This document shows positions 4,739 through 25,353 of a stretch of DNA of 51,056 nucleotides, one piece after another. Origin of the DNA: a virus; the IMG/VR virus record IMGVR_UViG_3300025898_000008, positions 1-51,056 of that record. One strand, 5' to 3'. Below the pieces are notes generated by a model. That model was not told the origin of the DNA. It saw nothing but the letters and a program-made list of their open reading frames with translations, and did not search any database. The position numbers and the translations under genes were made by a program. How positions within the stretch are numbered: position 1 is the stretch's first letter; each line of letters begins with the position of its first letter.

Positions 4739-4739
4739 A

Positions 4740-8459: not shown

Positions 8460-10228
8460 TCCAAGCGTACGGCTTATCGTTCCCTGACGGGACAACCCCG
8501 GCAACGGTTGAGCTTTTCTGTTTTGCGCATGGCTGGGCGCGAGAACAGAGCGGGCTGACCCGGTACCAGCATTACCGGCAGGCGGTGGATTTGTTGTGGA
8601 ACGTGCCACGAAGGGAGTATGCGATTGCGCGGAAGATGGCGTACGATCCAGACAAGCACGATTTATTTATCTGGAACGAGTGGACCGAACTCGTCAGCGA
8701 ACAGCTTTGCATCGAGAAAGAAGTGCTGATTTCGGGGCCGGGGGCATCTTGGAAAAGTACGGCGGTCGCTGTTTACGGAAATGTGCTTTGGTATTCGTCA
8801 CCGCACAATACGCGGGTAGTTTGCACCTCGACAACGAGTGATGCGCTGCGGGCGAAGTTCTGGAAAGAGATTCAACATTTCTACCGAGCCGCGAATACAG
8901 GAATCGGTAATCCTGTTCCGAGCCGGACGATTATTCAGTACCAGAAAGGCGACGATGGGGCGGGGATTTACGGAGTAGCGGTTGAATCGGATGGGAGCGT
9001 TGAACGGGCAGTGAACAAGATCGTTGGCCGGCACAACACGAATGTCTTTGTCGCGGTGGACGAGTTGGCTACGGTGAGCGAGGCGATTGTCGAGGCCAGC
9101 GTGAACTTGGAAACCGGCGCTGAACATTTCCAATTTGCAGGCATGGCAAACCCGGATAGCAAATTCGATCCGCACGGGAGAATGTCCGAACCCGAGAATG
9201 GGTGGAACTCGATTACGGATGAAACCCAGATGTGGCGCACCAAACGGGGCGGGGTGGCGATTCATCTGGACGGCAGGCGAAGCCCAAGAATACGGGATGA
9301 CGACAAGTTTCCTGGCATGATTCGGCAACGTGACTTGGATCGGACAGCCGAAATTTACGGTGAAAACAGCCCTCAATTTTGGAAACAGCGTGTCGGGTTC
9401 TGGTGCCCGGAAGGAATTACCAAAACAGTGTTGTCTGAGACGATGATCCAGAAGTTTCGGGCAATGGAAAAGATCGGGGCGGGCGGCGTGTTAAGTTGGG
9501 TCAGCGGATTTGTTCAAGCCGCCGTACTCGATCCTTCGTTTGAAGGTCAGGACAGAAAAGTATTGCGGTTCCCGAAATGGGGCGACGTGTTTGATAGCCT
9601 GACGGGACAGACGCGAAAAGCGATTGATCTTGGCGAGTACATCATCCTGAAAGTCGATGTCACATTGCCCGAGCCAATCCATTACCAGATCGTCAGACAG
9701 GTCAAACAGGCGTGTATTGAGCGGGGCATATCACCGGAACTGTTTGCTTTGGATTCCACTGGTGAGGGTGGCGGGCTGGCGTCAATTTTCGCGCGGGAAT
9801 GGTCGCCAGCGATTGTGACAGTGGAGTTTGGCGGCAGACCATCAGATCGGCCCGTTAGCGAAATCAATCCGCGTACGTGCCGAGAAGAATACGTTAACCG
9901 GGTTACAGAACTTTGGTTCGCCGTCCGAACCATGATGCAAAATTTTCAGGTGTACGGCCTAGACAAAGATACCGCGATTGAGTTTTGTAAACGGCTTTGG
10001 GAACCGCACGGGAACATGATAATCGTGGAATCCAAAACCGTAATGAAAACCCGCACAGGCAAAAGTCCTGACTTGGCGGATTCGGCGGTGATCGCGACTG
10101 AATTGTTCCGGCAAAAAGAAGATGTGTCGATTACCAGCATGCCGACGCAAGATGATGCGTGGAACAAATTTCATCGGGAGCAAGCGGCGTTGCTTGACGC
10201 GGATCACTCTTATTTGGTCGAAACGTAA
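8456..10228 (+). CDS. terL: Terminase large subunit (packaging ATPase and nuclease)
   Basis: The 590-aa product carries an ATPase domain with a Walker A variant GPGASWKS at residues 94-101 and a Walker B VFVAVDEL at 197-204. The C-terminal nuclease domain has LKVDVTLPEP, LDSTGEGGGL and the late acidic motif DLADSAVIATELF. It drives DNA into the prohead at the portal and cuts the concatemer. The start at 8456 overlaps the preceding stop by ATGA; an in-frame ATG 21 bp upstream lies inside that gene. The Walker A motif has Ser-Trp before the Lys instead of the usual Gly-Lys, a variation seen in other terminases. Confidence 0.93.
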   Translation: MIQAYGLSFPDGTTPATVELFCFAHGWAREQSGLTRYQHYRQAVDLLWNVPRREYAIARKMAYDPDKHDLFIWNEWTELVSEQLCIEKEVLISGPGASWKSTAVAVYGNVLWYSSPHNTRVVCTSTTSDALRAKFWKEIQHFYRAANTGIGNPVPSRTIIQYQKGDDGAGIYGVAVESDGSVERAVNKIVGRHNTNVFVAVDELATVSEAIVEASVNLETGAEHFQFAGMANPDSKFDPHGRMSEPENGWNSITDETQMWRTKRGGVAIHLDGRRSPRIRDDDKFPGMIRQRDLDRTAEIYGENSPQFWKQRVGFWCPEGITKTVLSETMIQKFRAMEKIGAGGVLSWVSGFVQAAVLDPSFEGQDRKVLRFPKWGDVFDSLTGQTRKAIDLGEYIILKVDVTLPEPIHYQIVRQVKQACIERGISPELFALDSTGEGGGLASIFAREWSPAIVTVEFGGRPSDRPVSEINPRTCREEYVNRVTELWFAVRTMMQNFQVYGLDKDTAIEFCKRLWEPHGNMIIVESKTVMKTRTGKSPDLADSAVIATELFRQKEDVSITSMPTQDDAWNKFHREQAALLDADHSYLVET

Positions 10229-10229
10229 G

Positions 10230-10568
10230 CCAGATTTATACAAAGTCCTTTTCGTCACGCTGACCGATGGGCAGGAAAACTGTTCATCCGAATGGAACGA
10301 TCAGACGATTAAAGAACTCATCAAAGAAAAAGAGAGCAAGGATCATTGGACGTTTGTTCACATCGGCGTCGGCGCAAATGGATGGGACGCCGTGCATCGC
10401 ATGTCGAAAGGCACGCTTTCCGCGAGCAACGTTCTGAACATCGACCCGAAGGATACGAAAAAAACTTATGCTCGCATGAGTGCAATGACTGTGAGTTATT
10501 GTGCGGATTCAAGCAATGTCCAACGCAGCGCGCAAAACATCTGGAAAACGAGCGACGACACGCAATAA
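10230..10568 (+). pseudogene. Truncated vWA-domain protein remnant
   Basis: The frame reads VLFVTLTDGQENCSSEW (third MIDAS motif of von Willebrand A domains), then DHWTFVHIGVGANGWD and a C-terminal half typical of phage vWA proteins. The N-terminal half with the metal-binding DxSxS motif is absent. Homology starts right at the terminase stop, and no ATG, GTG or TTG is available between the terminase end and the vWA core. In-frame ATGs exist only inside terL (10122 and 10152), giving a non-homologous leader. The likely history is a deletion that joined the terminase 3' end to the middle of a vWA gene. Its end overlaps the HTH gene. Confidence 0.65.
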
Positions 10569-10734
10569 ATTCGCTTCGCAACTCGTTCAATGGCGTGGCA
10601 GCCGACCTCAACCCTTGGCTGCCAACGCTCTCGATGTTTCTCTGGCGACATACAGGAATTGGGAACAGGGGCGCAACGCGCCTAATCCGCTGACTCAATC
10701 AGCGTTGTTACGGTCAATGGATAAACTTTCTTAA
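10516..10734 (+). CDS. Small XRE-like helix-turn-helix protein
   Basis: The 72-aa product starts MSNAARKTSGKRATTR and contains LAANALDVSLATYRNWEQGRNAP, the turn and recognition helix of XRE/Cro-type DNA-binding domains, with little else. It overlaps the end of the vWA remnant in another frame. An upstream in-frame ATG at 10501 gives five more residues. It could be the regulator that binds the inverted repeat at 6187 or act on packaging; neither is shown. Confidence 0.7.
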   Translation: MSNAARKTSGKRATTRNKFASQLVQWRGSRPQPLAANALDVSLATYRNWEQGRNAPNPLTQSALLRSMDKLS

Positions 10735-11355
10735 ATGCTTCGACTCAAAGACAGATCGCTCGGCGTCCCAGATCAGTTCAGGTACACCCACGCCGAGAGC
10801 GGGTTCGTAAGTACCGGAGTAAACTGGTGGGACTGGTGGGATTCGATTGTCAAACACCGGACTGCTAATGGTTATCCGCCTATCACCGAAACAGAAGCGG
10901 AAGATCAGCTTTGCAAACAGATCGGCCCCGAGTTTTGCGAGCAGGAACAGCCCGGTGATTTTCGTTTCGTGAATACAAGATTGCGATTCGGTGACATCGT
11001 TCGCGGGGCCAAAGCGTACATCGCTCTCATCACATCGGGCTTTCGGACTGTCAGCCAAGAAGAAGCCGACCGCAGAGCAAGAGTGTGCTCGGGTTGTTAC
11101 CTGCGCATCATTCCGCAAGGTTGCGGCAGTTGCGTGAAGCTCGGGAGCCTGATTGTTGGAGATATTGCAGGAAAGAAAACTGCGTATGACGATCAACTTG
11201 AAAACCGGGCGTGCGCTGCGTGTCAGTGTCCATTGCAACCCTTGGTACATTTCCCTCTTGCTCTTTTGGAGCAGACGGATAATGATGCGCTTCAAGAATC
11301 TCTGCCGGAGTTTTGTTGGAGAAAACGCGGCGGCGAAAATTATGTTCGCGAATAA
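10735..11355 (+). CDS. Cys-rich phage hypothetical protein
   Basis: The 206-aa product starts MLRLKDRSLGVPDQFRY. It has CSGCYLR, then GCGSCVKLG, then CAACQCPL and a final EFCWRK, suggesting one or two zinc sites in the C-terminal half. I recall this layout (proline-containing N-terminus, ARVC-CGC pattern and PExCW end) from proteins next to phage packaging genes. The ATG directly follows the preceding stop codon. A structural or packaging accessory role is inferred from position. Confidence 0.7.
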   Translation: MLRLKDRSLGVPDQFRYTHAESGFVSTGVNWWDWWDSIVKHRTANGYPPITETEAEDQLCKQIGPEFCEQEQPGDFRFVNTRLRFGDIVRGAKAYIALITSGFRTVSQEEADRRARVCSGCYLRIIPQGCGSCVKLGSLIVGDIAGKKTAYDDQLENRACAACQCPLQPLVHFPLALLEQTDNDALQESLPEFCWRKRGGENYVRE

Positions 11356-11554
11356 TACCGTTGGTTATACTGAACGAACTTATCGGCTTCATCGCAGGCG
11401 TAATGGATCAACAGACGAATTTGCTTGGATATACAGCGATACCAGGGAAGCAGCTTCCCCAATTTTCTATTCTGCCAGAGAGGCTCTGACATGGGCTGAA
11501 AAACGAGCAGGCGATACTCATGTGGAGATCACGTCCATGAAATACTCCGGGTGA
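11342..11554 (+). CDS. Small hypothetical protein
   Basis: The 70-aa product starts MFANNTVGYTERTYRLHRR and ends VEITSMKYSG, a small alpha/beta composition. The start overlaps the previous gene by 14 bp; the in-frame extension upstream to 11153 is out-of-frame shadow of that gene. Its stop overlaps the GTG start of the next gene (GTGA). Confidence 0.55.
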   Translation: MFANNTVGYTERTYRLHRRRNGSTDEFAWIYSDTREAASPIFYSAREALTWAEKRAGDTHVEITSMKYSG

Positions 11555-11805
11555 AAAGACTATTCGATCTTGGCATCGGGTACGATGAAGAAACCGAAAC
11601 GTATTGCGCCATCGTAAACTCGTTGACCGATAGAAAAACGGTGACAGTGCGCGATCAAAACATCCGCGTCGTCATGTCGAAAGTGTCTCGCCGGATTCGC
11701 CAAAAGACGAAAGAGATCAAGCTTTTTCCAATTCGCGATAAACCGCCGATGCTGGCCGGAGTTCGCAATGGTTCTCTTGAATTAGTCTCCCCAGAAGCAA
11801 ACTGA
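11551..11805 (+). CDS. Small basic hypothetical protein
   Basis: The 84-aa product, MKRLFDLGIGYDEETETYC and onward, uses a GTG start coupled by GTGA to the previous gene. It is rich in Arg/Lys in the middle (SKVSRRIRQKTKEIKLF). It ends one base before the portal gene. Function not recognised. Confidence 0.6.
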   Translation: MKRLFDLGIGYDEETETYCAIVNSLTDRKTVTVRDQNIRVVMSKVSRRIRQKTKEIKLFPIRDKPPMLAGVRNGSLELVSPEAN

Positions 11806-11806
11806 A

Positions 11807-14143
11807 ATGCAGGCCGTCGCCACAATCACTTCTGACGATGAAGGGAAAACGTACGAAGTACCCGAGTCGTGTATCGGCAGCGCCAAAGATGCGCGCACGA
11901 CAATCTCGACTCTTGTAAAAGCCGAGAGCATCAGGGCCAAGCGCAGGGCAAAATTCAACGGGATGCTGAACGGCAACCCTCCCTGGCCTGGATTGCTTCG
12001 CGACAAAGGACAAGGCGACAGAGCCAATTTCACTTTACGCGAGGCAGAAGGATTCATTGCCGCCGCCAAAACTCCGTACTATGCGCTCGCCTTTAAAGCC
12101 GACAGATTCATTCAGTTGACCCTCGATTACGGGAGTGCCGACCCCGGTTTACTCGCGGAATGGGCCGGGAAGATCGCGACTCGATACCAGTACGCGAACG
12201 AGGATGACGACAGTCTGGATATGCACATGCAGCGGTCGCAATTCCAGATGGTCGCGCACGGCAGCGGGCCGATGGTTTGGGAAGATACCGAGGACTGGCG
12301 CGCGAAATCGAGAATGGCAGGGCAAATTCTTGTTCCCGACGATGCTTCCGCTGACATTGACGAATGGGACACAGCAGCCTGTCAACGGTCGTACACCCCA
12401 ACGCAACTTTGGTCCAAGATCAAAAACGAAGCGGCAGCGACCGCAAGAAAATGGAACGTGCCAGCTTGCAAAAAGGCGATCATGGACGCGGCCCCAGAGA
12501 ATTTGAAAGGCACATACGGCCTGAATTTCGAGTACTACGAGGCTGAGATGCGCAAGGGTGCGACAGGTTGGGATTCAAAGTCAAAACGGATTTTCGTGAC
12601 CGATCTTTTCCAGAAAGAGTTCACCAACCGAATCAGCTACTTCATTGTCTTACAGATTGAAGAAGCGACTCTCGAAACAGATGTTGAAGGCGATCCGAAT
12701 ACCGGATTTTTGTTTCGCAAAATTGGCCGGTACGAAAGCTGGAGTCAGATCATTTGCCCGTTCCTTTACGATGTCGGCCCGGATGGGCAATGGCATTCCG
12801 TGAAAGGTGCTGGTCCGAAGATATTCGATTTTTGCAGCGCATCCGACCGGCTCTTTTGCCGTGGACTAGACGGCGCAATGAAAGCGAGCGGCGTGATTGT
12901 TCAGGCAAAAGATGCCAACGCCTTGCAGGAAGCCGCATTTACCGACATTTCTGGCGGAACAGTGATCGGGCCGAAGTACGAAGTGATGCAGCAACGGATT
13001 GCGCCCAATCTCGAATCGCCGCTCCTGATGAAGCGCGAGCTTGGGAAAACGTTGGCGGAAAATACCGGGCAATACAGACAACGATGGGAGTCCGAACCTG
13101 AACCGACTTTGGGGCAGCAACAAATCAAAGAGACACGCGAATCTGTTCTGGGCGATTTCGACGCCAGTCGGTACCTGAAATATCTCGACCGTTTTCATAG
13201 AGAGCGTTTCCGGCGCATATTGGCGATGGGAAAGAAACTGTATGCGAGCCGGAAAGACGTTGCCCCGGTTGACATCGAAAACGAAACCGCGTTGACGCCG
13301 AGCGAGCAGGGCGCGCTGAAATTTTATCGTGGCTGCGTCGCTACGGACGGGATTCCAGAGGAGATCATGGAGTTCGAGAATTTCTGCCGTATCAAAGCAA
13401 CCCGGCTGGTTGGCAACGGGAGTATTCAGATGCGCCAGATGATCGGCGACAAAATGCTTGGACTGATTCCCGCGATGGATGAGCGCGGGCGGAACTTCAC
13501 TTTGCGATCAGTTGTTTCTTCGTATGCAGGCGAGACATGGGCTGACGCAACATTTCCGGCGTACGACAAGCCGCCAGTTGTTGACCAGAACATTTCCGTG
13601 GCGACGATGGAAAACAATTTCCTGGCACTGCCGAATGCTCAACTAAAAGTCTCGCCCGAACAGGACGACGCAACCCATTTTGGGATTCATTTACAGTTCG
13701 TCGGCCAGATGGCGCAAGCTACCCAAGCCGGTCAGGTTGATCCGCATCAACTGTTGCTCGTTTTGGAACAGGCCGGGCCGCATACCCATGAGCATTTGCA
13801 GAACATCGCTGGTGATCCGACTCGGAAGGTGCAGGTAAAACAAATGACCGAAGCGTGGCTGAATATGTCGAAGATGGCCGACCAACTTGGGCAACAAGTT
13901 GCCGAAATGGACAAGGCCGCCGCAGCTCAACAGCCACAGCAAGCGCCCGATCCCGAGCTGATCGCGGCTCTGGCAAAGGTGCATGGAGAATTGGCAATTA
14001 AGCGTGACAAAATGCAGGGCGATTTGATTTTGAAAAAGGATAAGCAGGACGCCACGATGCGCTTGAAAGATGTGCAGGCAGCGCACGGACTCAGGCTTGA
14101 CCGCTGGAAGGCGGCAGCGCAACCGCAGGCACAAGCCGCGTGA
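11807..14143 (+). CDS. Portal protein
   Basis: The 778-aa product sits between terminase and scaffold/capsid genes, in the size class of P22-type portals. Features include an N-terminal segment with NGNPPWPG, a glycine/tryptophan core (GSGPMVWEDTEDW), HSVKGAGPKIFDFCSASDR, and a long C-terminal helical barrel-like tail (LAIKRDKMQGDLILKKDK) ending in a Gln/Ala-rich segment. Portals form the dodecameric ring through which terminase loads DNA. Assignment rests on position, length and overall pattern rather than a single motif. Confidence 0.85.
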   Translation: MQAVATITSDDEGKTYEVPESCIGSAKDARTTISTLVKAESIRAKRRAKFNGMLNGNPPWPGLLRDKGQGDRANFTLREAEGFIAAAKTPYYALAFKADRFIQLTLDYGSADPGLLAEWAGKIATRYQYANEDDDSLDMHMQRSQFQMVAHGSGPMVWEDTEDWRAKSRMAGQILVPDDASADIDEWDTAACQRSYTPTQLWSKIKNEAAATARKWNVPACKKAIMDAAPENLKGTYGLNFEYYEAEMRKGATGWDSKSKRIFVTDLFQKEFTNRISYFIVLQIEEATLETDVEGDPNTGFLFRKIGRYESWSQIICPFLYDVGPDGQWHSVKGAGPKIFDFCSASDRLFCRGLDGAMKASGVIVQAKDANALQEAAFTDISGGTVIGPKYEVMQQRIAPNLESPLLMKRELGKTLAENTGQYRQRWESEPEPTLGQQQIKETRESVLGDFDASRYLKYLDRFHRERFRRILAMGKKLYASRKDVAPVDIENETALTPSEQGALKFYRGCVATDGIPEEIMEFENFCRIKATRLVGNGSIQMRQMIGDKMLGLIPAMDERGRNFTLRSVVSSYAGETWADATFPAYDKPPVVDQNISVATMENNFLALPNAQLKVSPEQDDATHFGIHLQFVGQMAQATQAGQVDPHQLLLVLEQAGPHTHEHLQNIAGDPTRKVQVKQMTEAWLNMSKMADQLGQQVAEMDKAAAAQQPQQAPDPELIAALAKVHGELAIKRDKMQGDLILKKDKQDATMRLKDVQAAHGLRLDRWKAAAQPQAQAA

Positions 14144-14430
14144 CGACACAGGAATTTCGATCAACGCCAGAACTTGTCGCTGAGATGCGTAAGATTTTCG
14201 AGATTCCAGCGTTCAAGTTCTGGCTTGAGGCTTTCAGCGAGAGCGATAATCCGATGAATAGGGTTGCGCCACCATCAATTACACCGCACGGAGCTTATAT
14301 TTTGCTTGGAGAGCAGACGGGTTGGCGACAGTGCCTGACTCGTTTCATGCTCGGAGCCGTGCCGCTTGAGCAGCCGCCAAAAAAGGAAGAACAAACGTAC
14401 GCAGAACCACCGCCAGAACCGGAAGAATAA
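14140..14430 (+). CDS. Small hypothetical protein with Pro/Glu-rich tail
   Basis: The 96-aa product starts with GTG overlapping the portal stop (GTGA). It has a folded part (AFKFWLEAFSESDNPMNR, GAYILLGEQTGWRQCL) and a tail QPPKKEEQTYAEPPPEPEE. It lies between portal and scaffold, so a head-assembly role is possible. Confidence 0.65.
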   Translation: MTTQEFRSTPELVAEMRKIFEIPAFKFWLEAFSESDNPMNRVAPPSITPHGAYILLGEQTGWRQCLTRFMLGAVPLEQPPKKEEQTYAEPPPEPEE

Positions 14431-14434
14431 AACC

Positions 14435-15640
14435 ATGCCTGAAATAGCAGAAGCACCGCCGCAAACCGAATCGACAGCAAAGGAAGCGCATCTCAAGTCT
14501 CTTTTCGAGATTCCGAGCAATCTGGTTGATGAACCACCGGCCAATCCCGATGTGTCAGGAACTCCTCCTGTAAAGCCCAAGGTTGAGCCGGAAACCCCTC
14601 CGGTCACTCCCGCTAAGGAAGCAGACGATCTGACGACTCGTTTAGCGCCTGATTTTGCCGCTCTTGAAACTCCTCCGGTTGTTCCCGCCGTTCCAGACGA
14701 GGATTTGGTTGCGCTCGACGCCGAAATTGAAGCAGCGCCTTCCGCGAAAAAGAAGGCCGACTTGAAGAAGCTCAGGGATCAGTTGGCGACCCTCAAGACT
14801 GAAAATCAAACCCTGAAATCTCGCCCAGCCGCGCCGACTGACGATCCTGACATCAAATCGTTGTTGGAAATGACGACCAAGCAACGTGACGAAGCTTTGT
14901 CGCGGCTTGAGCGGTACGATTTGGCTGCGCATCCAGCGTTCCAAGAAAAATACCTGAAACCGCGTCAGCAAAAGTTTGATGACGCCTACAATCTCGTGAA
15001 AGAAGTTGGCGGCAATCCCGAGGCGTTGCGTCGGGCAATGTTGTTAGTCGGGGAACCAAGGATCGAGGCGTTAGAGGAAATTGCGAACGCGATTCCTCAC
15101 CAGATGATGCGCGGACGTTTCGAGCGATTGATTGAAGGAATTGACGCCGATTCCAAAGTGATAAACGAAAAACTCGCCAACGCCAAGCTCGCCGCCCAAG
15201 AGGAGGCCAAGCAAGAAACGATTCGTCGCCACGAAAACAACGAAAAAGCGGCGAAGGAATGGAAGTCGCTGCTCGGCGCGGCCCGAACCGATCTGGTTGA
15301 AAACATCAAGCTCGAAACGCTGATGAAAACCGGCAAACCGGAACATGAGTGGTGGGACAAACAGGTGGACGAGATTGATGAAGTTGCCGAGGAAATCCTG
15401 CTCAAAAGCACTCCGCAAAAGGCGGCGATAGCAGCGTACCTTGCTGCGTCAGCCGGAGCGTTTCGTTCCATGTATCAGGCCGAACGCGCGGCGCGGCTCG
15501 CTACTGAGAAAGAAGTCCGCGAATTAAAGGGAGCCGAACCGAATCTGAATCAGGATCGTCGCCCGGCCAAAGTTGATGGTGACGCAACCGAACCAGATGC
15601 GATCATTTCGAGATTGCGTTCAGGAGCATACAAGAAATGA
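14435..15640 (+). CDS. Probable scaffold / capsid assembly protein
   Basis: The 401-aa product has a Pro/Thr/Val-rich N-terminal third (PPVTPAKEADDL), then coiled-coil segments (KKADLKKLRDQLATLKTENQTLKS), Glu/Lys-rich helices and a basic C-terminus (SRLRSGAYKK). This is the usual make-up of scaffolding proteins, and it lies between portal and major capsid genes. The start at 14435 follows the previous stop by 4 bp; the upstream frame to 14366 overlaps that gene. A basic end that contacts capsid protein is typical of P22-like scaffolds. Confidence 0.75.
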   Translation: MPEIAEAPPQTESTAKEAHLKSLFEIPSNLVDEPPANPDVSGTPPVKPKVEPETPPVTPAKEADDLTTRLAPDFAALETPPVVPAVPDEDLVALDAEIEAAPSAKKKADLKKLRDQLATLKTENQTLKSRPAAPTDDPDIKSLLEMTTKQRDEALSRLERYDLAAHPAFQEKYLKPRQQKFDDAYNLVKEVGGNPEALRRAMLLVGEPRIEALEEIANAIPHQMMRGRFERLIEGIDADSKVINEKLANAKLAAQEEAKQETIRRHENNEKAAKEWKSLLGAARTDLVENIKLETLMKTGKPEHEWWDKQVDEIDEVAEEILLKSTPQKAAIAAYLAASAGAFRSMYQAERAARLATEKEVRELKGAEPNLNQDRRPAKVDGDATEPDAIISRLRSGAYKK

Positions 15641-15873
15641 AGCTGATTCGCCTGACAGAAATTACGAAAAAAGGGGAGATCACAAAGCTACAATCCATGC
15701 TGATAAACCCCGACATAATCGCCACCGTCACAACCGGAGAACTGAAAGCAGAAACGGTGCATATCATCGGGCAAACCCAGACCGATGCCGTGACGTTCAT
15801 TCTGTTCAAAAACAACAGCGGAACCTTCGTGCAAGAGACAGTCGAGGAGATCGAAAAACTGGTTGCCGAATAA
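15637..15873 (+). CDS. Small FlbD-like fold protein
   Basis: The 78-aa product has MLINPDIIATV, HIIGQTQTDAVTFILFKN and ETVEEIEKLV. The pattern of strand, strand and terminal helix with a TVEEI end recalls small FlbD-family proteins. ATGA overlap with the scaffold gene fixes the start. It is the last gene before the capsid promoter region. Function unknown. Confidence 0.6.
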   Translation: MKLIRLTEITKKGEITKLQSMLINPDIIATVTTGELKAETVHIIGQTQTDAVTFILFKNNSGTFVQETVEEIEKLVAE

Positions 15874-15879
15874 TTTGTG

Positions 15880-15908
15880 TTGACGGCAACGTAAAACGTC
15901 TCTACATA
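15880..15908 (+). promoter_or_regulatory. Candidate promoter for the major capsid transcript
   Basis: TTGACG (15880..15885) and TACATA (15903..15908) are separated by exactly 17 bp. Transcription would start near 15914, which is the first base of the first of two tandem leader repeats. The -35 matches the sigma-70 consensus in five of six bases; the -10 is weaker. Placement between the small FlbD-like gene and the capsid leader supports a dedicated strong late promoter. Confidence 0.55.
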
Positions 15909-15913
15909 CATTT

Positions 15914-16078
15914 TCAGGCGTAAGCGTGTTGGTCCGAGCCTGCCAACAAAACCATCAGGCGTAAGGGTATAGCGGACCGAGCCTGCCGCAAACTGGATCG
16001 TACCGGATTTCATCACCGGAAAAAACAGGTGCCCGTGGAAATTGCTCCACGTGGAGCATCACCCGTTAACAGTTTGCA
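15914..16078 (+). promoter_or_regulatory. Structured 5' leader of the capsid mRNA with tandem hairpins
   Basis: Two units start with TCAGGCGTAAG (15914 and 15955). Each is followed by a hairpin with the same loop CCGAGCCTG but different arms: GTTGG/CCAAC (15928..15932 with 15943..15947) and GCGG/CCGC (15972..15975 with 15986..15989). Different but still complementary arms are evidence for selection on structure. The upstream CAGGC can also pair with GCCTG in the loop, giving a possible pseudoknot. Next, GCAAACTG (15988..15995) pairs with CAGTTTGC (16070..16077), enclosing CCGG/CCGG and CGTGGA/TCCACG hairpins. This closes just before AGAAAGG, the capsid ribosome binding site. A 16-bp perfect palindrome at 16043..16058 offers a competing fold. 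No known riboswitch class was recognised. Confidence 0.6.
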
Positions 16079-16090
16079 AGAAAGGCATTT

Positions 16091-17320
16091 ATGCCAGCTT
16101 ACGATTACACGTGCGAGGAAATTGATAACATGCTCCTCGCTGAAACAGGTCGCTACATGCAGGGCGCATTAGCGACTCGTCTCTCCCCGCGCGGGAGATG
16201 GCGCAACGCCATTCCCTTTGAAAAATGGGAAGATGGCATGGGCGTAGTCCACAACTCAATCATCTGGGAGCGAACAGTCCCTTCCAATGACGGGGATGAA
16301 TGGACAGAGAACACACCGTCAACCGGCACAGCAGACAGCCAGTGCGATCTTGACCCTGAACTCGTCGAGTTCGGTCAGAGCACACGTTCCTGGCGCAAAT
16401 CGAGCCGCAATATCCGAACACCCTGGTTTTGTTTGGAAGATTTGCGGGACGATCATCGCGTCAAAGACATGCTCGCGGCCTTGGATAAAAACCTTGGCTG
16501 GGTTACGCATTACGTCTGGGAAAATCGTATTCAGGATGAGTACGAGCGGCTATCCGAGCACAAGATTACCGAAAACGGCAGCTTCGACATCAACGGCACT
16601 TCGTTCAGCGGCGCTAACCCGCCAACGTCGAAGTTGCTACAAGGCACGCTCCGGCAAATCTACGAGTACCTGATGGGCGATGGCGCGGGAGAAGAAGGCG
16701 GCGTTGGATTGACCTCCAGCGGCGCGCCGGTTCTTCAACTCTTTACCGATCTCAACACGATTGACGACCTCGTTCGTCAAGACCCCGAGTTGCGGATGGA
16801 TTTCCGGTACGACCCTGACAAGGTGAAGGTTCTCACCAAGGCGTACGGACAAGAACGGGCATGGGACAACTACCAACTCGTGTACAATCCGTTCCAGCCT
16901 CGGTACGAGATTGTCGGTGGCAATATCGTTCGGGTGCAGCCGTACTCCGATCCTGTTGCAGCCGTGAAGGGCAAGAAACAGACGTTCCAAAAGGCGTATC
17001 TGTACGCGTCGTACGCGAAATCGTACGTCGTGATGAAACAGGTATTCACGATGGAAACGCCAAACCAAATCACCAGCCCCGGTGGGCGACTGGAGTTTGC
17101 TCCGGTTGATTACATGGGCGACTTCGCGTGGTTGAACCTGCGTGACGCTAAATGCAATCCGCGTGGGCAAAAGGGGTTCTTCGATGCCGTCTTTTCATCC
17201 GCTGCAAGGCCGATGGATACGTGGTTCGGATTCACCATCTTCCATAAGCGTTGTGCGCCACTTCGCACTCTGAAAACGTCGTGCTACGAACCGAGCTATG
17301 AGTTGGTTCACAGCATCTAA
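16091..17320 (+). CDS. Major capsid protein
   Basis: The 409-aa product starts MPAYDYTCEEIDNMLLAET. It follows the scaffold gene, has a strong AGAAAGG ribosome binding site, a dedicated candidate promoter and leader, and a following hairpin, all expected of the most abundant virion protein. Segments such as RYMQGALATRLSPRG, GMGVVHNSIIWERTVP and RSWRKSSRNIRTPWFCLEDL match a phage coat family I recall. C-terminal FGFTIFHKRCAPLRT also fits. HK97-type fold is presumed but not shown. Confidence 0.85.
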   Translation: MPAYDYTCEEIDNMLLAETGRYMQGALATRLSPRGRWRNAIPFEKWEDGMGVVHNSIIWERTVPSNDGDEWTENTPSTGTADSQCDLDPELVEFGQSTRSWRKSSRNIRTPWFCLEDLRDDHRVKDMLAALDKNLGWVTHYVWENRIQDEYERLSEHKITENGSFDINGTSFSGANPPTSKLLQGTLRQIYEYLMGDGAGEEGGVGLTSSGAPVLQLFTDLNTIDDLVRQDPELRMDFRYDPDKVKVLTKAYGQERAWDNYQLVYNPFQPRYEIVGGNIVRVQPYSDPVAAVKGKKQTFQKAYLYASYAKSYVVMKQVFTMETPNQITSPGGRLEFAPVDYMGDFAWLNLRDAKCNPRGQKGFFDAVFSSAARPMDTWFGFTIFHKRCAPLRTLKTSCYEPSYELVHSI

Positions 17321-17322
17321 TT

Positions 17323-17365
17323 AACTCAAACCCTGCGCATCCTTTGCGGTGCGCAGACTTGAGTT
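17323..17365 (+). terminator. Long hairpin directly after the capsid gene
   Basis: AACTCAA (17323..17329) pairs with TTGAGTT (17359..17365), and inside it CTGCGCA (17333..17339) pairs with TGCGCAG (17350..17356). The whole stem begins 2 bp after the capsid stop. It lacks a following T-run, so it may act as an RNA-processing or mRNA-stabilising element, or as a partial terminator that keeps capsid expression above that of the downstream genes. Confidence 0.6.
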
Positions 17366-17406
17366 GGTTATTGCAAGTTGAAACGGAAACGATAAGCTCG
17401 GCGGAT

Positions 17407-17832
17407 ATGGCAACCATCAAAACCAGTTATCGCGACATCATCAACTTCGTTAATGCAGCGTCCCGCTGGCAATCCATTCAGGAACGGGACAAACTTCCTC
17501 AGACAAAACTCAGTTACGCCGTGGCGCGGATGTTGAAGCGTTGCCAGCGCCCCCTGGAAGATTACAACGGCAAGATCGAAGATTTACGCCTCGAACAGGC
17601 TTTGGAGGACGAAAAAACCAAGGCCGTTCTTCGCGATGAACAGCAACAGTACAAGTTTTCCAAGGCCGGACTAAAGAAAGTTCTGGAAGATCAACGAGGA
17701 CTATTGAGTCAGGAAATCGAGATCGAGCCGTACACCGCAACGGCATTGCCAGAAGATTTGAGCGATGACGTGAGGATCGCTTTCGAGGGCTTCGTTATTA
17801 AGGCCGAACCCGAACCAGATGCCGCAACGTAA
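17407..17832 (+). CDS. Hypothetical structural-region protein
   Basis: The 141-aa product starts MATIKTSYRDIINFVNAAS. It is helical and charged (LRLEQALEDEKTKAVLRDEQQQYKF), with DQRGLLSQEIEIEPYTATALPEDL near the end. Its place right after the capsid gene suggests a head-completion or accessory protein. The frame extends upstream to 17344 but runs into the hairpin, so the ATG at 17407 is preferred. Confidence 0.65.
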   Translation: MATIKTSYRDIINFVNAASRWQSIQERDKLPQTKLSYAVARMLKRCQRPLEDYNGKIEDLRLEQALEDEKTKAVLRDEQQQYKFSKAGLKKVLEDQRGLLSQEIEIEPYTATALPEDLSDDVRIAFEGFVIKAEPEPDAAT

Positions 17833-19060
17833 CATACCGAGATTCACGGGAGGCTTTGGCGGGTTTTGGTCTTTACCGCCGCCAGATTTACCGCCTATCG
17901 GAGATTACGAAGCGCCAACTGTTCCGCAACCATCACTAACGGTTTTTCCGGGTGGTGGTAGAACCTCTGGTGTTAGCACAACAGCGCCAGTCACCCGAAC
18001 TCCGGCGTCTAATGCCGGGTATGAATCAGTCAGCCCAACTCTGTTTGCTGATGACAGCTATAGTCCGAGGGCATGGTCTCCCGGCAGAGAGCCGCCGACC
18101 GCAAATCCGCCGCAACTTCCAACCCATTCGTCGCCGCCAGACCCGGTTGTATCCTTTACATCCGAAGGGCCAACAGTTGATGTAAGCGGAGCAGGAGGAG
18201 GATTGCCGACTCCGTATTGGAACCAGCCCGCGACTCCGCGTTACACTCCCGGTGGACACGACATTGCCGGATTTGGCGGGAACATGACGCTGGGCCAGTT
18301 CCTAAGCACTCCGCTTGCGCTGATGCGGTTCGGCGGGGACCGTTTTCAACCCGGAGGGCAAATTACAAGCCCTTCGCAATCTGCCGACTCGCTTCCACCA
18401 GAGCTTGCGGCATTGCCAGAAGCCACATTTTCACCAACGGACGTTCCTCCGGCAGATGCGCCAACATCAGCTTTGTCCGATCCTGGCAGTGGCGCGCCAC
18501 AACCGACTTCGCAACCTTTTCGTAGCGGTCAAGGAAATCAGCCTGCGGCTCAACCGACAAATCGGCTCAATCAAATCCTCCAAACTTTTCCGAGTTTGAA
18601 CAATCCGGCAGCAATCCGCGCCATCAATTCAGGTGCAAGTCCTACAGATTTGGTTGGACACGCCCAGTTCGATAGTCACGCGGCTGGACTAATGGAAATG
18701 GGGTTCCAATCTTTCGGGGGAAGCCCGAACGATACTGGCAGTACTTCGGACGCGGGACATACCATGTTTACTCCAACCCCAGGCACTCCAATGGGTCAAT
18801 TTGATCCTGAAACGGGAACGGTAGGGCCAAGCGATCAGATGTTTGGATCGGGCCGTGATCCTAGATGGATATTCCCGTCTCAAGCTGAGTCTGCGCGATT
18901 AGGACTTAGCATGACAACGAACGCCGGGAAATATAACGATTGGCTAGCGGCGCACAATCCTTGGTTTCAAAACCCCGCACCATCGAATAATCTTTATGGT
19001 CAAGCGACGGCAGGCAAATCCACTACTAGACCAAGGCCGTCAACAACTCCGTCAAAATGA
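17819..19060 (+). CDS. Pro/Gly/Ser/Thr-rich structural protein
   Basis: The 413-aa product begins MPQRNIPRFTGGFGGFWS and is largely low complexity (PPDLPPIGDYEAPTVP, TPTPGTPMGQFDPETG). Short folded parts are likely around MTLGQFLSTPLALMRFGG and KYNDWLAAHNPWFQ. It overlaps the previous gene by 14 bp and the next by ATGA, and lies among virion genes, so a flexible structural or head-tail linker protein is likely. Family not recognised. Confidence 0.65.
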   Translation: MPQRNIPRFTGGFGGFWSLPPPDLPPIGDYEAPTVPQPSLTVFPGGGRTSGVSTTAPVTRTPASNAGYESVSPTLFADDSYSPRAWSPGREPPTANPPQLPTHSSPPDPVVSFTSEGPTVDVSGAGGGLPTPYWNQPATPRYTPGGHDIAGFGGNMTLGQFLSTPLALMRFGGDRFQPGGQITSPSQSADSLPPELAALPEATFSPTDVPPADAPTSALSDPGSGAPQPTSQPFRSGQGNQPAAQPTNRLNQILQTFPSLNNPAAIRAINSGASPTDLVGHAQFDSHAAGLMEMGFQSFGGSPNDTGSTSDAGHTMFTPTPGTPMGQFDPETGTVGPSDQMFGSGRDPRWIFPSQAESARLGLSMTTNAGKYNDWLAAHNPWFQNPAPSNNLYGQATAGKSTTRPRPSTTPSK

Positions 19061-20889
19061 TTCTCGATAAGAACAGATCGTATGACGGATTCTCCAATCT
19101 CGCAGACGGGATGGATGCCGGCCGGAATCCGTCTCTGATTTATCCGACCCAGTGCGCCAGTGCCGAGAACTTGGTTTTCCGTGGTGGCGTGCCGACGACC
19201 AGACCCGGATTTGCAACTTGCACAATCAATTTTAGTGATGTTGGTGTTCACTACGATAACAACGGATATTTCGTTGGCTTGAGCGGCCCCGAAGGTGAGG
19301 CCGCATTTTACGGCGGGATTTTTCAAGGCGCTTGTTACTATTCGCCAGGTTCCGGAAAACCGGAGTGCATAATGGTAATGACCGAAGGCCGCTTGTTCCA
19401 AATGACGCCACAGTTCGGAATGAGTTTCGGCGTAGTTACGAACATGGACGTGAAAGAGATAGCTTTGGATAAGCGGAATTTCTCTGGCTACGGCTTTTTG
19501 GGTTCAGGTTCCCGCGCACTCCCGGTTTACATGGTGCAAGCCGACCGTTTTTGCGTGATTCAAGACGGTCAATCCAAACCGATAATCTACGATGGAGTTG
19601 TAGCGCGGAGAGCAGCGGCTAATGAAGTTCCTGTAGGCACGATCATGGCTTACGGAATGGGGCGACTGATCGTAGTTGTTAATGATTCGAGAGAATTGGA
19701 GTTCAGCGACCTTTACGGGAGTAACACTGATCCAAACGATCCGGGCGCGGCGGTTCTGAAATTCACGGAAACGACATTCCTGAGCGAAGGCGGAACAGCG
19801 GCCATTTCGTTTTCGCTTGGACGGATTACCGGACTACATTTCTTGCCGCAACAAGATTCAAGCGTTGGCGACGGCGAACTTCTGGCGTTTTCAGAGCGCG
19901 GAATTACATCGTTCCAGTTGGCTATTCCACGCGATCAATGGAAACAATCTGCTTTTCAGCGTGTGCTTTTGTACAACACGGGGGCGCGTGGATCGCGTTC
20001 GATCATTTCGATTGTGGAAGATGTTTGGTTTCGGAGCGAGGACGGCTGGCGAAGTTACCGTCAGGCCAGAGCGGAAGCCGGAAGCTGGTCGCATCTTCCG
20101 ATGAGCACGAATGTAAAAACGTGGACCGATAACGACACGATTCAATGGCTCGACTACGGTTCAGCGATCAATTTCGATAACCGGCTGATCTGTACGTGTA
20201 CTCCGCAACCGAATAATTGGCGGGTGTTCCACAACGGACTATTAGCTCTCGATTTCAACGTGCTTTCGACCTTCGGACAGACAACCAAGCCGGCCTGGGA
20301 CGGGCATTGGACCGAAAGCCGAACACAACAGCTTATTGGAGGACAATTCGGCGGTATTCAGCGGGCGTATTCTCTTGGTCTTTCGTTGACCAATGATGTG
20401 TTAACCGGATTTCCGTATTTCATTGTGCAAGAAATTACCAAGGGAGATACGACCGATGGGGGAGTTGGTATCCCGTGGCAAATCGTTACGAAATCACATG
20501 ATTTCCAAAGCCCGTTCAACGAAAAGGAATTGTTCGGAGCGGATTTATGGATTGATGACGTGCAAGACCTGGTAACGATTTCAACCGAATACCGCCCAGA
20601 CCAACATCCGATTTGGACTGACTGGCAAACATTGCCTTCCATTTCTCCGGTTGGAACCGCGCAGGCCATTACTCCGGGCGGTGTGCCGACTTTGATCGAG
20701 AATTTCTTTCCGCGCCGGACAGTCGAGAAACCCGATAACGACGTGGATCAAGCCGCGTTTACGGGGCGCAACATGAGACGTGGATTTGAATTTCAAGCCA
20801 GGATCCGTGGAACCGGGCATTGCGCAATTCGCAAACTTCGGTTACACGCGAAACAACTTGTGGAAGATGATAAAGCAAAGGTGCCGTAA
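19057..20889 (+). CDS. Tail hub / packaged-DNA stabilization protein, P22 gp10-like
   Basis: The 610-aa product starts MILDKNRSYDGFSNLADGM. The opening with an N-terminal NLADGMDAG, CASAENLVFRGGVPTTRPGF, is the hallmark of P22 gp10-like beta-propeller tail proteins (nucleation by a conserved N...RGG...RPGF block). The body is beta-rich, with blade-like repeats (GRLIVVVNDSRELEFSD, LAFSERGITSFQL). In P22 this protein plugs the portal channel below gp4. The call is by similarity of pattern and gene order. ATGA coupling supports the start. Confidence 0.7.
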   Translation: MILDKNRSYDGFSNLADGMDAGRNPSLIYPTQCASAENLVFRGGVPTTRPGFATCTINFSDVGVHYDNNGYFVGLSGPEGEAAFYGGIFQGACYYSPGSGKPECIMVMTEGRLFQMTPQFGMSFGVVTNMDVKEIALDKRNFSGYGFLGSGSRALPVYMVQADRFCVIQDGQSKPIIYDGVVARRAAANEVPVGTIMAYGMGRLIVVVNDSRELEFSDLYGSNTDPNDPGAAVLKFTETTFLSEGGTAAISFSLGRITGLHFLPQQDSSVGDGELLAFSERGITSFQLAIPRDQWKQSAFQRVLLYNTGARGSRSIISIVEDVWFRSEDGWRSYRQARAEAGSWSHLPMSTNVKTWTDNDTIQWLDYGSAINFDNRLICTCTPQPNNWRVFHNGLLALDFNVLSTFGQTTKPAWDGHWTESRTQQLIGGQFGGIQRAYSLGLSLTNDVLTGFPYFIVQEITKGDTTDGGVGIPWQIVTKSHDFQSPFNEKELFGADLWIDDVQDLVTISTEYRPDQHPIWTDWQTLPSISPVGTAQAITPGGVPTLIENFFPRRTVEKPDNDVDQAAFTGRNMRRGFEFQARIRGTGHCAIRKLRLHAKQLVEDDKAKVP

Positions 20890-20892
20890 AAA

Positions 20893-21627
20893 TTGAGCCT
20901 TCCCGTCGAAATTTCGATTGCGAATCCCGATCCTTCGGCGGCGCCGACAACGCTGACCCAACTGATTGTCATTCTCCGCACCCTGATAACGGCAGTTGTG
21001 ACGGGTAGCTACAAGCCCTATGTCCAAGGCTCTGGCACGCCTTCTATTTCCGATCAAGACAAGGTTTGGCATCGAACCGACAATGGCGGCAGGCCGATGG
21101 GAACCTATGTCTATTACAACGGAGGTTGGCGGCGACAGTACACGCATCGGCTGAACGAAGTTGTAATGTATCGTGGCAGTCCGGTACTGGATTTTGATGG
21201 GTCTGGACTCGGAATTGTCGGTGGCGAATGGGATGGGTTTGCGTTAATGAACGGCAGTAACGGAACCGAAGATTGGTCGGACAGATTTATTGTGGCATCG
21301 CATACCACAGATTTATCAATCGGTTATCCCGGCGCGTATCCGGGTGGTCCACCTTCAAGTAACGTGAGCGGCGCGACAACTCATACCGGAGGTGCAAACT
21401 CAATTACATTGGACGGAACAAATACCTACCGGCCAGCAAGGGCCGCGGTCCAAGTTTCAAAATGGAAGGCAGACGGGAACGCGCCTGATGCCGGAAGCGG
21501 CCTTATCGGAGCGGGATCGACGGTTGATCTTGTTCCGGCAGACGCGGGCAACGAAACGCCTCCGGCTATACCCACCTTGCCGCCTTACATCGTAACGGGG
21601 TTCTGCCAGTGGGTGGGCTACGCTTAA
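20893..21627 (+). CDS. Tail collar or short fibre-like protein
   Basis: The 244-aa product initiates at TTG (20893), giving MSLPVEISIANPDPSAAPT. The C-terminal part contains LNGS-type segments seen in collar domains (WDGFALMNGSNGTEDWSDRF, GGPPSSNVSGATTHTGG, PYIVTGFCQWVGYA). The WDGFALMNG...DRF block is typical of tail-collar proteins (compare WALCDG...DLRGRF). No good upstream ATG or GTG exists, and the gap to the previous stop is 3 bp. Confidence 0.65.
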   Translation: MSLPVEISIANPDPSAAPTTLTQLIVILRTLITAVVTGSYKPYVQGSGTPSISDQDKVWHRTDNGGRPMGTYVYYNGGWRRQYTHRLNEVVMYRGSPVLDFDGSGLGIVGGEWDGFALMNGSNGTEDWSDRFIVASHTTDLSIGYPGAYPGGPPSSNVSGATTHTGGANSITLDGTNTYRPARAAVQVSKWKADGNAPDAGSGLIGAGSTVDLVPADAGNETPPAIPTLPPYIVTGFCQWVGYA

Positions 21628-21628
21628 T

Positions 21629-23368
21629 ATGGGCGGAATAGCATATGGCGTGGTTAAGGATCAACTGGCAACAGTTGTAGCTAACGGTGTAGGCAGTTCC
21701 GACCCGCGCGTATTGATGCGGACCAACGAGGCGACGAAGCTGATCCTAGATGAAATGATTCCGGTAAACGGAATGGCTGTTTATGATGTTGTTGCAACCC
21801 TCGATTCAGGCAACCAAGTTTTGTTGCTCCCCAAAGAGTTGGAGAACGCCATTGAAGTTCAAGTCTTGAGCGGTGCAACGGTCAACGGTCAAACCGATGT
21901 GACGCAGGGATGGAATTTGGTAACGAATTTTACCTACGTTGATCCGGCGAGCGCGCATGATAACCCGCTGATAGACCTTGGGCTTGTTCCTGACGGTATT
22001 GACCCGACCATTCTCCGCAGGAAATACATTTATCCCGGTCTGCAATCGGGCGCGACGGTACGGGTAACGGGGGCGAAGCGGTACGTGCCGATTACGGGTG
22101 ACGGAGATTATCTCATCGTCCAGAACATTCGGGCGTTGAAGCTGGCGATTCTCTCGATTGAACGGGACGAAAACAGCGCACAAGCCGAAGGCGACGGCTA
22201 CCTGCAAAAAGCTCTGAGGGTTTTACAGGCCGAAGTCAAAAAGCATCAGCTTGACCCGACCAATTCCATCAAGCGCAAAGCCAGTTACCAGCACGATCTG
22301 GTAACGTACGATGAGGGAACGCTAGGCCGTACACGGGCAAGGCTGGCATTGGAAGTGGCCGGATTTCTTCAACGCGGTAAATCCGAGATTACCTATCTCG
22401 TCAATCGCGCCGTGCAAATGTTAGTGGACAACCGCAATCAGATTGCCATTTCCGGCAGAATCAGCGTGCATGGCGGCGTGACAGAATTGGTTTACGAACC
22501 GGCAACAGCGGCAACTGACGTGCTGTTGTGGAACGACTACAACGATATTCGTTTGATGGTGCAAAGTTTCATTACCGAAAGCGGCGATCCACAGACGTTG
22601 CCCGTAGCCGAGGAATACCAGAGAAAGGCTTTTGAGTCGCAACGGGCAAAGCTGATTGAGGAAACCGAATACGAGCGGCACACGACTTACACGACCGCGC
22701 TTGGAGTTTATTTGCCTGGCTCATTCGGATACGCTGTCACTAGACTCGCTTTGGAATTGGACGGCGGATTAAGGCTTACCACGACCGAACTGGAACGAGT
22801 TGCGAGCATGGCTGAGATGCGTTTGATGGAACAGGGCATTTTCAAAGGATGCTTGCGCGAAGTTAATGCAACCGTTACTGGCGGCGAGATTCTTTTTCCG
22901 CGCGATATCGAAGCCGTGCTGATTACGGACATCGAAGGGCAACCCGTGGATATTCGATCGATCTATTTTGAATATCAGCAAAACGGGCCCGGGAAATTTT
23001 CGGGTTGCACGCAAAGATTCGTGGATCGCGGCGAAGTCTATTTTCCGCAGACTGGATTCAAACGCCGGAAATACTTTTTCAACGGCTCGTTGACCAATTC
23101 TGTTCAGTTCACTGCAATTTGTAAAATCCGCTGGATTCAAAAGGTGAGCGGAGACGAGCTTGTAATCAAGAATTTCGAGGGACTTCGCTTGATGTCGCAG
23201 GCCATCTTACTTGAACGCGCGGAGAAATGGTCTGATGCGCAGGTCGCACAAGCAAACGCCATTGCAGTTTTGGAAAAGGAATTGCGCGAGCATCTTTCAG
23301 GGATTCAACACACGGCGAATGTTCAGATGAGCGGATACAGTCTGGGGGATTTGGGAAATCCACTTTAG
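21629..23368 (+). CDS. Tail tubular / accessory protein with an internal duplication
   Basis: The 579-aa product starts MGGIAYGVVKDQLATVVAN. The N-terminal half (SDPRVLMRTNEATKLILDEM to ALKLAILSIERDENSAQAEG, about residues 25-200) and the C-terminal half (VTRLALELDGGLRLTTTEL to AILLERAEKWSDAQVAQA, about 370-560) look like two versions of one module: a helical start, a beta-rich centre and a closing helix of LERxxx type. The position next to the gp10-like gene suggests a head-tail connector. Duplication is my reading of the pattern and not an alignment. Confidence 0.6.
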   Translation: MGGIAYGVVKDQLATVVANGVGSSDPRVLMRTNEATKLILDEMIPVNGMAVYDVVATLDSGNQVLLLPKELENAIEVQVLSGATVNGQTDVTQGWNLVTNFTYVDPASAHDNPLIDLGLVPDGIDPTILRRKYIYPGLQSGATVRVTGAKRYVPITGDGDYLIVQNIRALKLAILSIERDENSAQAEGDGYLQKALRVLQAEVKKHQLDPTNSIKRKASYQHDLVTYDEGTLGRTRARLALEVAGFLQRGKSEITYLVNRAVQMLVDNRNQIAISGRISVHGGVTELVYEPATAATDVLLWNDYNDIRLMVQSFITESGDPQTLPVAEEYQRKAFESQRAKLIEETEYERHTTYTTALGVYLPGSFGYAVTRLALELDGGLRLTTTELERVASMAEMRLMEQGIFKGCLREVNATVTGGEILFPRDIEAVLITDIEGQPVDIRSIYFEYQQNGPGKFSGCTQRFVDRGEVYFPQTGFKRRKYFFNGSLTNSVQFTAICKIRWIQKVSGDELVIKNFEGLRLMSQAILLERAEKWSDAQVAQANAIAVLEKELREHLSGIQHTANVQMSGYSLGDLGNPL

Positions 23369-23373
23369 AGTTT

Positions 23374-23484
23374 ATGCCACTTAAAGACCCAATCGCACGG
23401 CGTGCCTATCAAAGAGAATGGGAGCGCAAAACTCGTTCACGAGTGGATGTGGCAGGAGGCCGCATAATATGGCTGGATCATTAG
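23374..23484 (+). CDS. Small 36-aa basic peptide
   Basis: The frame reads MPLKDPIARRAYQREWERK, then a short basic tail. The opening MPxKDPxxRRAYQR is a common start of small phage proteins, many HNH-related, in my memory. It begins 6 bp after the tail gene and overlaps the next gene by 16 bp. Coding status is likely because of the pattern, but no function can be given. Confidence 0.5.
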   Translation: MPLKDPIARRAYQREWERKTRSRVDVAGGRIIWLDH

Positions 23485-24284
23485 GCTTAGATTTTTTCGG
23501 CAATCTCCTAAGTGGAGGGGACATTGGCGCGGGCATCCTTGGCGATCTCGGAGGTGCCGAAGGTATTTTTGGACGGAAACCCCAGGTCGCAGAATATTCT
23601 CCGACCGATCTTGGGGCAGAAGCCAAAAAGGCGGCAGCTTCAAATATTTCCAATATGCCGGAAATCGAAGCCCTCCTAAACCGCATATTGCCGGGATATA
23701 CTTCCCAAGTAGCTCAAGGCTCTAAAAACACGCTTTCATTGTTGCGTGGTGAAATACCGCAGGACGTACAAGACAGAATCCGACGCAATTCTGCTTTCCA
23801 ATCTCTTTCTTCTGGTTTCGGTGGAAGCGGAATGGCGAAGGCATTAACTGCGCGAGATTTGGGATTAACCAGTCTTGATTTAATGGATCGCGGAACGAAC
23901 AGTGCTCAGCGCTGGGCGGGACTTACCGAAGGTGCGGTGTCGCCATTTTCGGTAACAGCGAAAGAACAAGCCGATCAGACCAGTAAAAATAATTTATATC
24001 AGCAGGCCGTAAAACAGTTTGAATTCAATGTGGCGGCGGCACCTTCGCCCGCTGCTGCTGGATTATTCAATCTGGACAACGCGATTGGTTCTCAATTCAT
24101 GTCGTTCGGACTTGGAAGCGCAATGGGCGCGATGGGCGGAGGCGGTAACGCCGGACGAGTAAACGCGCCGTCTGGACAATATTACACTAATCCATACAGC
24201 ACCGGCACAGGATTCGGTGCTGGCTTAGCATCAGCAGGTGGCACGTCACCGGGATGGAATCCTTACAGCGGATGGGGCGGATAA
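23469..24284 (+). CDS. Gly/Ala-rich virion protein, ejection-type
   Basis: The 271-aa product starts MAGSLGLDFFGNLLSGGDI. It contains LRGEIPQDVQDRIRRNSAF and GFGGSGMAKALTARDLGLTS, a block I recall from P22-like internal virion proteins, and a Gly/Tyr-rich end (TNPYSTGTGFGAGLASAGG). The hydrophobic glycine-rich start suits membrane interaction during DNA ejection. Start at 23469 by ATG; the frame upstream belongs to other genes. Confidence 0.6.
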   Translation: MAGSLGLDFFGNLLSGGDIGAGILGDLGGAEGIFGRKPQVAEYSPTDLGAEAKKAAASNISNMPEIEALLNRILPGYTSQVAQGSKNTLSLLRGEIPQDVQDRIRRNSAFQSLSSGFGGSGMAKALTARDLGLTSLDLMDRGTNSAQRWAGLTEGAVSPFSVTAKEQADQTSKNNLYQQAVKQFEFNVAAAPSPAAAGLFNLDNAIGSQFMSFGLGSAMGAMGGGGNAGRVNAPSGQYYTNPYSTGTGFGAGLASAGGTSPGWNPYSGWGG

Positions 24285-24285
24285 T

Positions 24286-25344: not shown

Positions 25345-25353
25345 CATTGTGAG

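Follow-up and report, generated by a model that had tools for sequence, protein, structure and literature searches.

Structured regulatory leaders of the structural genes of dsDNA phages are poorly known. The scaffolding protein of P22, a phage with portal-scaffold-coat gene order, is a structural protein that lowers its own synthesis post-transcriptionally. Several described systems come close in the architecture of the RNA. The leader of gene 32 in T4, T2, and RB69 carries a pseudoknot upstream of the gene that it controls; in T4, the operator lies 67 nt upstream of the start codon, comprises a single pseudoknot together with an unstructured, A+U-rich stretch that covers the ribosome-binding site, and serves translational autoregulation (PMC3014915). 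The put RNAs of HK022 are ∼70 nt long, consist of two plain stem-loops at early promoters (putL lies just after its promoter), and involve no dedicated protein (PMC9378689). The type III antitoxins (ToxI, CptI, and TenpI) are tandem pseudoknot repeats of 36–45 nt that are processed by a toxin encoded downstream (PMC4627078, PMC5086642), and small leader pseudoknots of the preQ1 family bind metabolites (PMC11625349).

The leader that we describe here resembles each of them in part. It lies in a stretch of virus DNA of 51,056 bases (IMG/VR record IMGVR_UViG_3300025898_000008; hereafter, the window) that encodes a terminase (23% identity to the Pseudomonas phage HU1 enzyme), along with sliding clamp, ERF, and YqaJ recombination genes. 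The leader falls within the 217 bases that separate a 78-aa ORF (ending at 15873) from a 409-aa ORF (starting at 16091). As in gene 32, candidate pseudoknots precede the gene that they putatively control, but here there are two units plus a three-way junction, and the gene is another one. As with the put RNAs, two structured elements lie near a probable phage transcript start, although those of HK022 are simple in fold. In its candidate tandem pseudoknots the leader resembles the type III antitoxins, which have a different loop order, and as a leader with small candidate pseudoknots it resembles the preQ1 class I riboswitches, from which this leader differs in pairing order and in the lack of an Rfam match. 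The predicted order is unusual in that the 3′ side of the loop would pair with an upstream strand and no loop separates the last two strands. The RNA element is real, selected, and narrowly distributed; it is new to the collections searched, and its broad kind is already known. Judged by a comparison of only three lineages, it appears to be a cis-acting structured mRNA leader in the broad sense, i.e., one with conserved structure and compensatory changes.

Relatives of the 409-aa protein in IMG/VR occur on three contigs, two of which (G001 and G003) encode proteins 91% identical to that of the window and the third (G002) a protein 80% identical. G001 and G003 come from one sample and their leaders are identical; the lineages counted are thus the window, G001/G003, and G002. 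The terminases of the relatives are 53% and 48% identical to that of the window and the scaffold-like proteins 68% and 43%, so that the viruses are well apart and can be counted as three lineages. The leader core (15914–16023) is identical to that of G002 at 97 of 107 aligned bases and to that of G001 at 100 of 110 (91%). The corresponding values for third codon positions of the 409-aa gene are 196/390 (first 1170 bases) and 272/409, that is, 50–67%. Among the gaps of the window as drawn, the leader is the sole noncoding stretch that matches G002. A search of IMG/VR with the pattern of the repeated unit, which is independent of the protein, returned exactly three contigs, the same as the protein search, and in all three the unit occurs twice, immediately before the homologue of the 409-aa gene.

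The unit, of ∼34 nt, is present in two copies (R1 and R2) placed 41 nt apart within 15914–16077 of the window (Table 1). The sequence TCAGGCGTAAG occurs at 15914 and 15955 and the loop CCGAGCCTG at 15934 and 15977, with the T at 15955 serving both as the first base of R2 and as the last base of the linker. A gapped pattern of the unit has two matches in the window and none in 100 dinucleotide shuffles, so the repeats are not due to chance. The pieces listed in the preliminary description of this DNA (both copies of each of these sequences, the stems GTTGG/CCAAC and GCGG/CCGC, the closing stem of a third domain, and a palindrome) are all present.

Table 1. Features of the leader and the adjoining gene (window coordinates)
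Feature	Position	Strand	Details
Promoter-like TTGACG - 17 nt - TACATA	15880–15908	+	TTGACG 15880–15885, TACATA 15903–15908
Pseudoknot unit R1	15914–15947	+	P1a 15915–15919, L1 GTAAGCGT, P2a 15928–15932
R1, 3′ part		+	L2 TCCGA, P1b 15938–15942, P2b 15943–15947
A-rich linker AAAACCAT	15948–15955	+	Versions across lineages: AAAACCAT / AAAACAAT / AAAGTAT
Pseudoknot unit R2	15955–15989	+	P1a 15956–15960, L1 GTAAGGGTATA, P2a 15972–15975
R2, 3′ part		+	L2 ACCGA, P1b 15981–15985, P2b 15986–15989
Third domain, three-way junction	15988–16077	+	P3 GCAAACTG 15988–15995 / CAGTTTGC 16070–16077
P4 CCGG	16003–16006/16016–16019	+	Conserved loop AYTTCATCA
P5 variable hairpin	16024–16067	+	
Ribosome-binding site AAGAAAGG	16078–16085	+	Directly after P3
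Weak start-codon hairpin	16084–16095	+	GGCA 16084–16087 / TGCC 16092–16095; possible in all three lineages
409-aa gene	16091–17320	+	Probable major coat (capsid) protein, judged from gene order; without family match

The evidence that carries most weight comes from P2. Its arms in the window, G001, and G002, respectively, are GTTGG/CCAAC, GTGAG/CTCAC, and GTCGAG/CTCGAC in R1 and GCGG/CCGC, GCTCG/CGAGC, and GTCGGG/CCCGGC in R2. These stems differ in both sequence and length among the lineages, yet they are complementary at 31 of 31 pairs; the covarying stems that had been proposed from the window are thereby borne out for P2, with compensatory changes found in the homologs. When the arms are re-assigned among the six units, only the true assignment of the 720 possible gives 31 pairs (the mean is 18.2). 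Loop lengths are constant in the three lineages (L1 is 8 nt in R1 and 11 nt in R2, L2 is 5 nt, and L3 is 0 nt), and L1 of R2 stays the same length while P2 there grows from 4 to 6 pairs. Based on these comparisons, we consider the covariation of the P2 stems to be real and well supported. It should be noted that MAFFT alignments misplace the variable stems and an insert (see below), so pairs were counted on arms set by hand, a procedure that leans toward the drawn structure. Counted in this way, 105 of the 107 cells of P1–P5 as drawn are Watson-Crick, one is G-U, and one is A-C.

P1 joins an upstream CAGGC to GCCTG in the loop and is nearly invariant. The complementarity between the two, which had been pointed out earlier, is kept in the relatives and includes one matched indel: in R2 of G002, one base is missing from each side (CGGC/GCCG) and pairing is kept. 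Overall, P1 is paired in 28 of 29 cells, with five of six units fully paired and the sixth at four of five pairs; R1 of G001 carries a C-A cell that is readable as a base pair moved to P2. The predicted pseudoknot pairing is thus supported by one event, and because P1, P3, and P4 hardly vary, covariation is no test of these helices. The order of the strands, with 0 nt between P1b and P2b, differs from that of a classical H-type pseudoknot. Two or more pseudoknots of these stem sizes can be drawn in 174 of 3000 shuffles of the leader and in 154 of 926 window tiles of 165 bases. Such geometry is common by chance, and the evidence is therefore comparative and not derived from the fold of a single sequence. 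RNAfold on the window leader alone prefers other folds, and RNAalifold, which cannot draw pseudoknots, yields a different nested consensus (2 pairs changed on both sides, covariation term +1.11). A pairing of the R2 CAGGC with the R1 loop, which would follow the classical order with the A-rich linker as a loop, was considered and set aside. It is equal to the unit-internal pairing in the window and G001, but G002 offers 3 contiguous pairs for it versus 4 or 5 within the units, so that the unit-internal pairing is preferred, on one event.

It is also conceivable, although rather unlikely, that no pseudoknot forms, and that plain P2 hairpins display the conserved loops as a protein-binding sequence, with P1 as a by-product or an alternative to P2. 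This proposal is about the fold and is compatible with any of the functions discussed below. It draws on the support for P2, which far exceeds that for any other helix, on the near invariance of P1, and on the behavior of isolated units, which adopt P1-like or P2-like folds of similar energy (−9.0 to −12.0 kcal/mol). The paired deletion in R2 of G002, which preserves P1, and the near-complete pairing of the P1 arms across the six units argue for the pseudoknot.

The third domain, described earlier as closing right before the ribosome-binding site, does so through P3. Its first part (15988–16023) is identical in the alignment at 36 of 36 bases to G002 and at 34 of 36 to G001. P5 changes among the lineages yet stays paired (GGTG/CACC, AGTA/TACT, GGT/ACC), which gives this predicted helix moderate support; for P3 and P4 the argument is invariance only. 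In each of the three lineages, the GC closing P2b of R2 doubles as the outer end of P3 (15986–15995, 16070–16077), and R2 P2 and P3 compete for two base pairs. The competing folds that had been suggested around a perfect 16-bp palindrome (TGCTCCACGTGGAGCA, 16043–16058, inside P5) are another matter, as the palindrome is missing from the relatives and these folds are not conserved. In G001/G003, an insert of ∼350 nt occupies the apical loop of P5, owing to which P3 closes across >400 nt, and all of the conserved helices are intact. The insert contains a 99-aa ORF (L002:2649-2948) that matches the endonuclease family phrog_2340 (E 1.7e-16) and that neither the window nor G002 has; it is a mobile gene whose presence leaves the conserved RNA undamaged. 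The possibility that the element works as DNA was considered as well, and the balance of G-U versus A-C cells in the core (1 to 1 of 107) is uninformative on strand; the longer P5 of G001 has 3 G-U cells, which leans to the plus strand.

Upstream of R1, the TTGACG-17-TACATA match is the only one of its kind among the intergenic gaps of the window as drawn, and the distance from TTGACG to the first repeat is exactly equal in all three lineages. In the 34 bases ahead of 15914, it is mainly TTGACG that is kept relative to G002, and the block conserved with this 80% relative begins at 15914 (both as the blastn start and in the alignment). A transcript that starts with the first base of R1 would agree with this boundary. 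The candidate promoter proposed at 15880 is consistent with the kept spacing and with the onset of conservation at 15914, but the pair at 15880–15908 is no more than a match to the consensus, and the promoter scan did not list it. As a separate observation, the spacer that separates the 78-aa-like gene from the promoter is ∼230 bases longer in G002 (L003:214-440) than in the window and G001.

With a start at this position, pairing would begin one base after the 5′ end, where the conserved block also begins, and the pseudoknots (nucleotides 2–34 and 43–76) could act as a 5′-terminal shield that blocks 5′-end-dependent decay. No partner would be needed, and an abundant structural mRNA would be made long-lived, as is expected of a coat mRNA. 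The titles cited in a review (PMC3997798) include work in E. coli on stabilization through the ompA 5′ region and on how 5′-terminal base pairing controls RNase E. We consider a shield unlikely, as it has no need for invariant loops, fixed loop lengths, distinct R1 and R2 copies, or a conserved third domain. The same position, with R1 and R2 covering 76 nt at the transcript start, invites comparison with processive antitermination of the HK022 put kind, in which the nascent leader would bind RNA polymerase and allow read-through of the long late operon. We find this quite improbable, given that put RNAs have two stem-loops (the word “pseudoknot” is absent from PMC9378689), that there is one locus per genome here versus several promoters, and that the 22 terminator-like sites on 8000–26000 do not exceed the 24.5 expected by chance.

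The identity of the downstream gene bears directly on function. The 409-aa protein has no match in Pfam, PHROGs, or the PDB, an hhalign comparison with HU1 genes arranged in the same order gave no match, and an AlphaFold model from 3 sequences was unusable (pLDDT 29) and was discarded. The gene follows those for the terminase, a 778-aa portal-like protein, and a 424-aa scaffold-like protein (names assigned from size and order), an arrangement that we take to resemble that of P22-like phages, and its product is the best conserved among the proteins compared across records. That it is the capsid protein, as claimed earlier, is plausible from this order and conservation, but the profile and structure searches did not confirm the assignment. 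The likeness to P22 comes from gene order and from the possible involvement of a structural protein; autoregulation in P22 concerns the scaffold gene, versus the probable coat gene here.

From the conservation, stem covariation, fixed loop lengths, and place of the leader, we infer the binding of a partner and control of the gene, and we tentatively favor a translational operator in the 5′ UTR of the probable coat-protein mRNA, to which a factor of phage or host origin would bind; the gene 32 leader of T4 provides a precedent (PMC3014915). A transcript starting at ∼15914 would encode the probable coat protein, with the leader as its structured 5′ untranslated region, i.e., tandem small pseudoknots at the extreme 5′ end followed by a three-way junction in which P3 ends at the ribosome-binding sequence. 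The invariant loops GTAAG, WCCGA, and AYTTCATCA would together be the site at which a specific partner docks; the likeliest candidates are a structural protein of the phage (coat or scaffold) and an RNA-binding protein of the host. Occupancy by the partner would govern initiation at the adjoining ribosome-binding site, and coat synthesis would thereby be matched to assembly or timing. Because the loops are invariant and their lengths fixed, the aligned leaders suggest a specific partner rather than a passive shield. Two features could serve as hinges. One is the 2-bp overlap of R2 P2 with P3; the other is the weak hairpin that spans the ribosome-binding site and the start codon. The latter region has low unpaired probabilities, but the start codon and ribosome-binding site in themselves account for most of the four pairs of the hairpin.

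A more specific proposal, possible but on the unlikely side, is that this is a new RNA class, with unusual-order tandem pseudoknots coupled to a three-way junction, by means of which a dsDNA phage senses a partner such as its own unassembled coat or scaffold and sets coat synthesis in response. A cis-acting leader that sets the expression of the downstream gene is the most economical reading. The cis-acting regulator of the preliminary description is partly supported overall: the RNA is structured, selected, and always found before this gene, and it is regulation itself that is reached by inference; binding of the coat protein, of an FlbD-like protein, or of a ligand is hypothetical. A compact selected element before a probable coat gene would be a test case for how a phage meters its most abundant protein, and the leader is perhaps a new RNA-protein or RNA-ligand module.

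A ligand would take the place of a protein partner if the leader were a tandem riboswitch of an undescribed class, for which a 5′ UTR holding two pseudoknots that resemble each other and have invariant loops would be suitable. This is very unlikely, as there is no Rfam riboswitch match, and neither a terminator nor a strand complementary to AAGAAAGG (an anti-Shine-Dalgarno platform) is seen in the leader. Moreover, metabolite riboswitches are usually found again in other hosts and before other genes, whereas this element is confined to a single gene of a single virus group. The tandem pseudoknots, with each unit here followed by AAA, also bring to mind a type III toxin-antitoxin decoy, in which the RNA would neutralize a host ToxN-like ribonuclease in the manner of the PhiTE pseudo-ToxI. 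We regard this as highly improbable. The two units differ in their stems, and each of the three lineages has two copies. In CptI the first loop is 1 nt and the second is long, versus 8–11 nt for the first and 0 nt for the last here. Type III repeats lie upstream of a ToxN, CptN, or TenpN gene, and the downstream gene here encodes the 409-aa protein without a family match. A ToxN-like gene (PF13958) was found in 0 of 3 records, although the control genomes were silent too.

The distribution of the leader was followed using the 409-aa protein and the terminase (each alone and as a profile, the former of 3 sequences), a portal-like profile, unit and third-domain DNA patterns, and tblastn/blastn in phages and plasmids. 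Among the matches listed, the leader occurs only in the same three contigs. The unit patterns matched 37 viral stretches and at least 119 genome stretches; among the best 40 from a filter over 161 records, single-copy matches such as L034 and L086 have a 6-bp P2 without a second copy and were read as chance. The third-domain pattern matched 12 stretches, of which L004, L005, and L006 are the known three and the other nine are missing the context. One further terminase relative (L166) showed no match to the 409-aa gene, but the record is just 4.6 kb and hence carries little weight. Within the four records, no further copies of the unit were found with the exact pattern, or with a relaxed pattern at 0 or 1 mismatch. 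The complements of the loops (GGCTCGG and TGATGAA), sought as the target of a phage small RNA, gave nothing consistent.

The original statement that the leader belongs to no recognized class agrees with Rfam 15, which has 0 matches for the window and 0 at E≤1 for the stretches of the relatives (L004 and L006); on 15850–16110, there are just sub-threshold matches on the minus strand (E 0.53–4.9). Among open-licence PMC papers on capsid-leader pseudoknots, structured phage RNAs, and structural-gene leaders, we found nothing like it, which does not by itself establish that it is unpublished.

Two other regions of the window deserve mention. An 826-aa ORF (28979–31459, minus strand) lies on the opposite strand amid the structural genes, and only ∼227 of its residues match G002. 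Adjoining genes at 3809–4789 and 4740–5297 (both minus strand) encode proteins with Lar restriction-alleviation domains, the first of which has a weak RMF-like C-terminus that falls under the Pfam cut-off.
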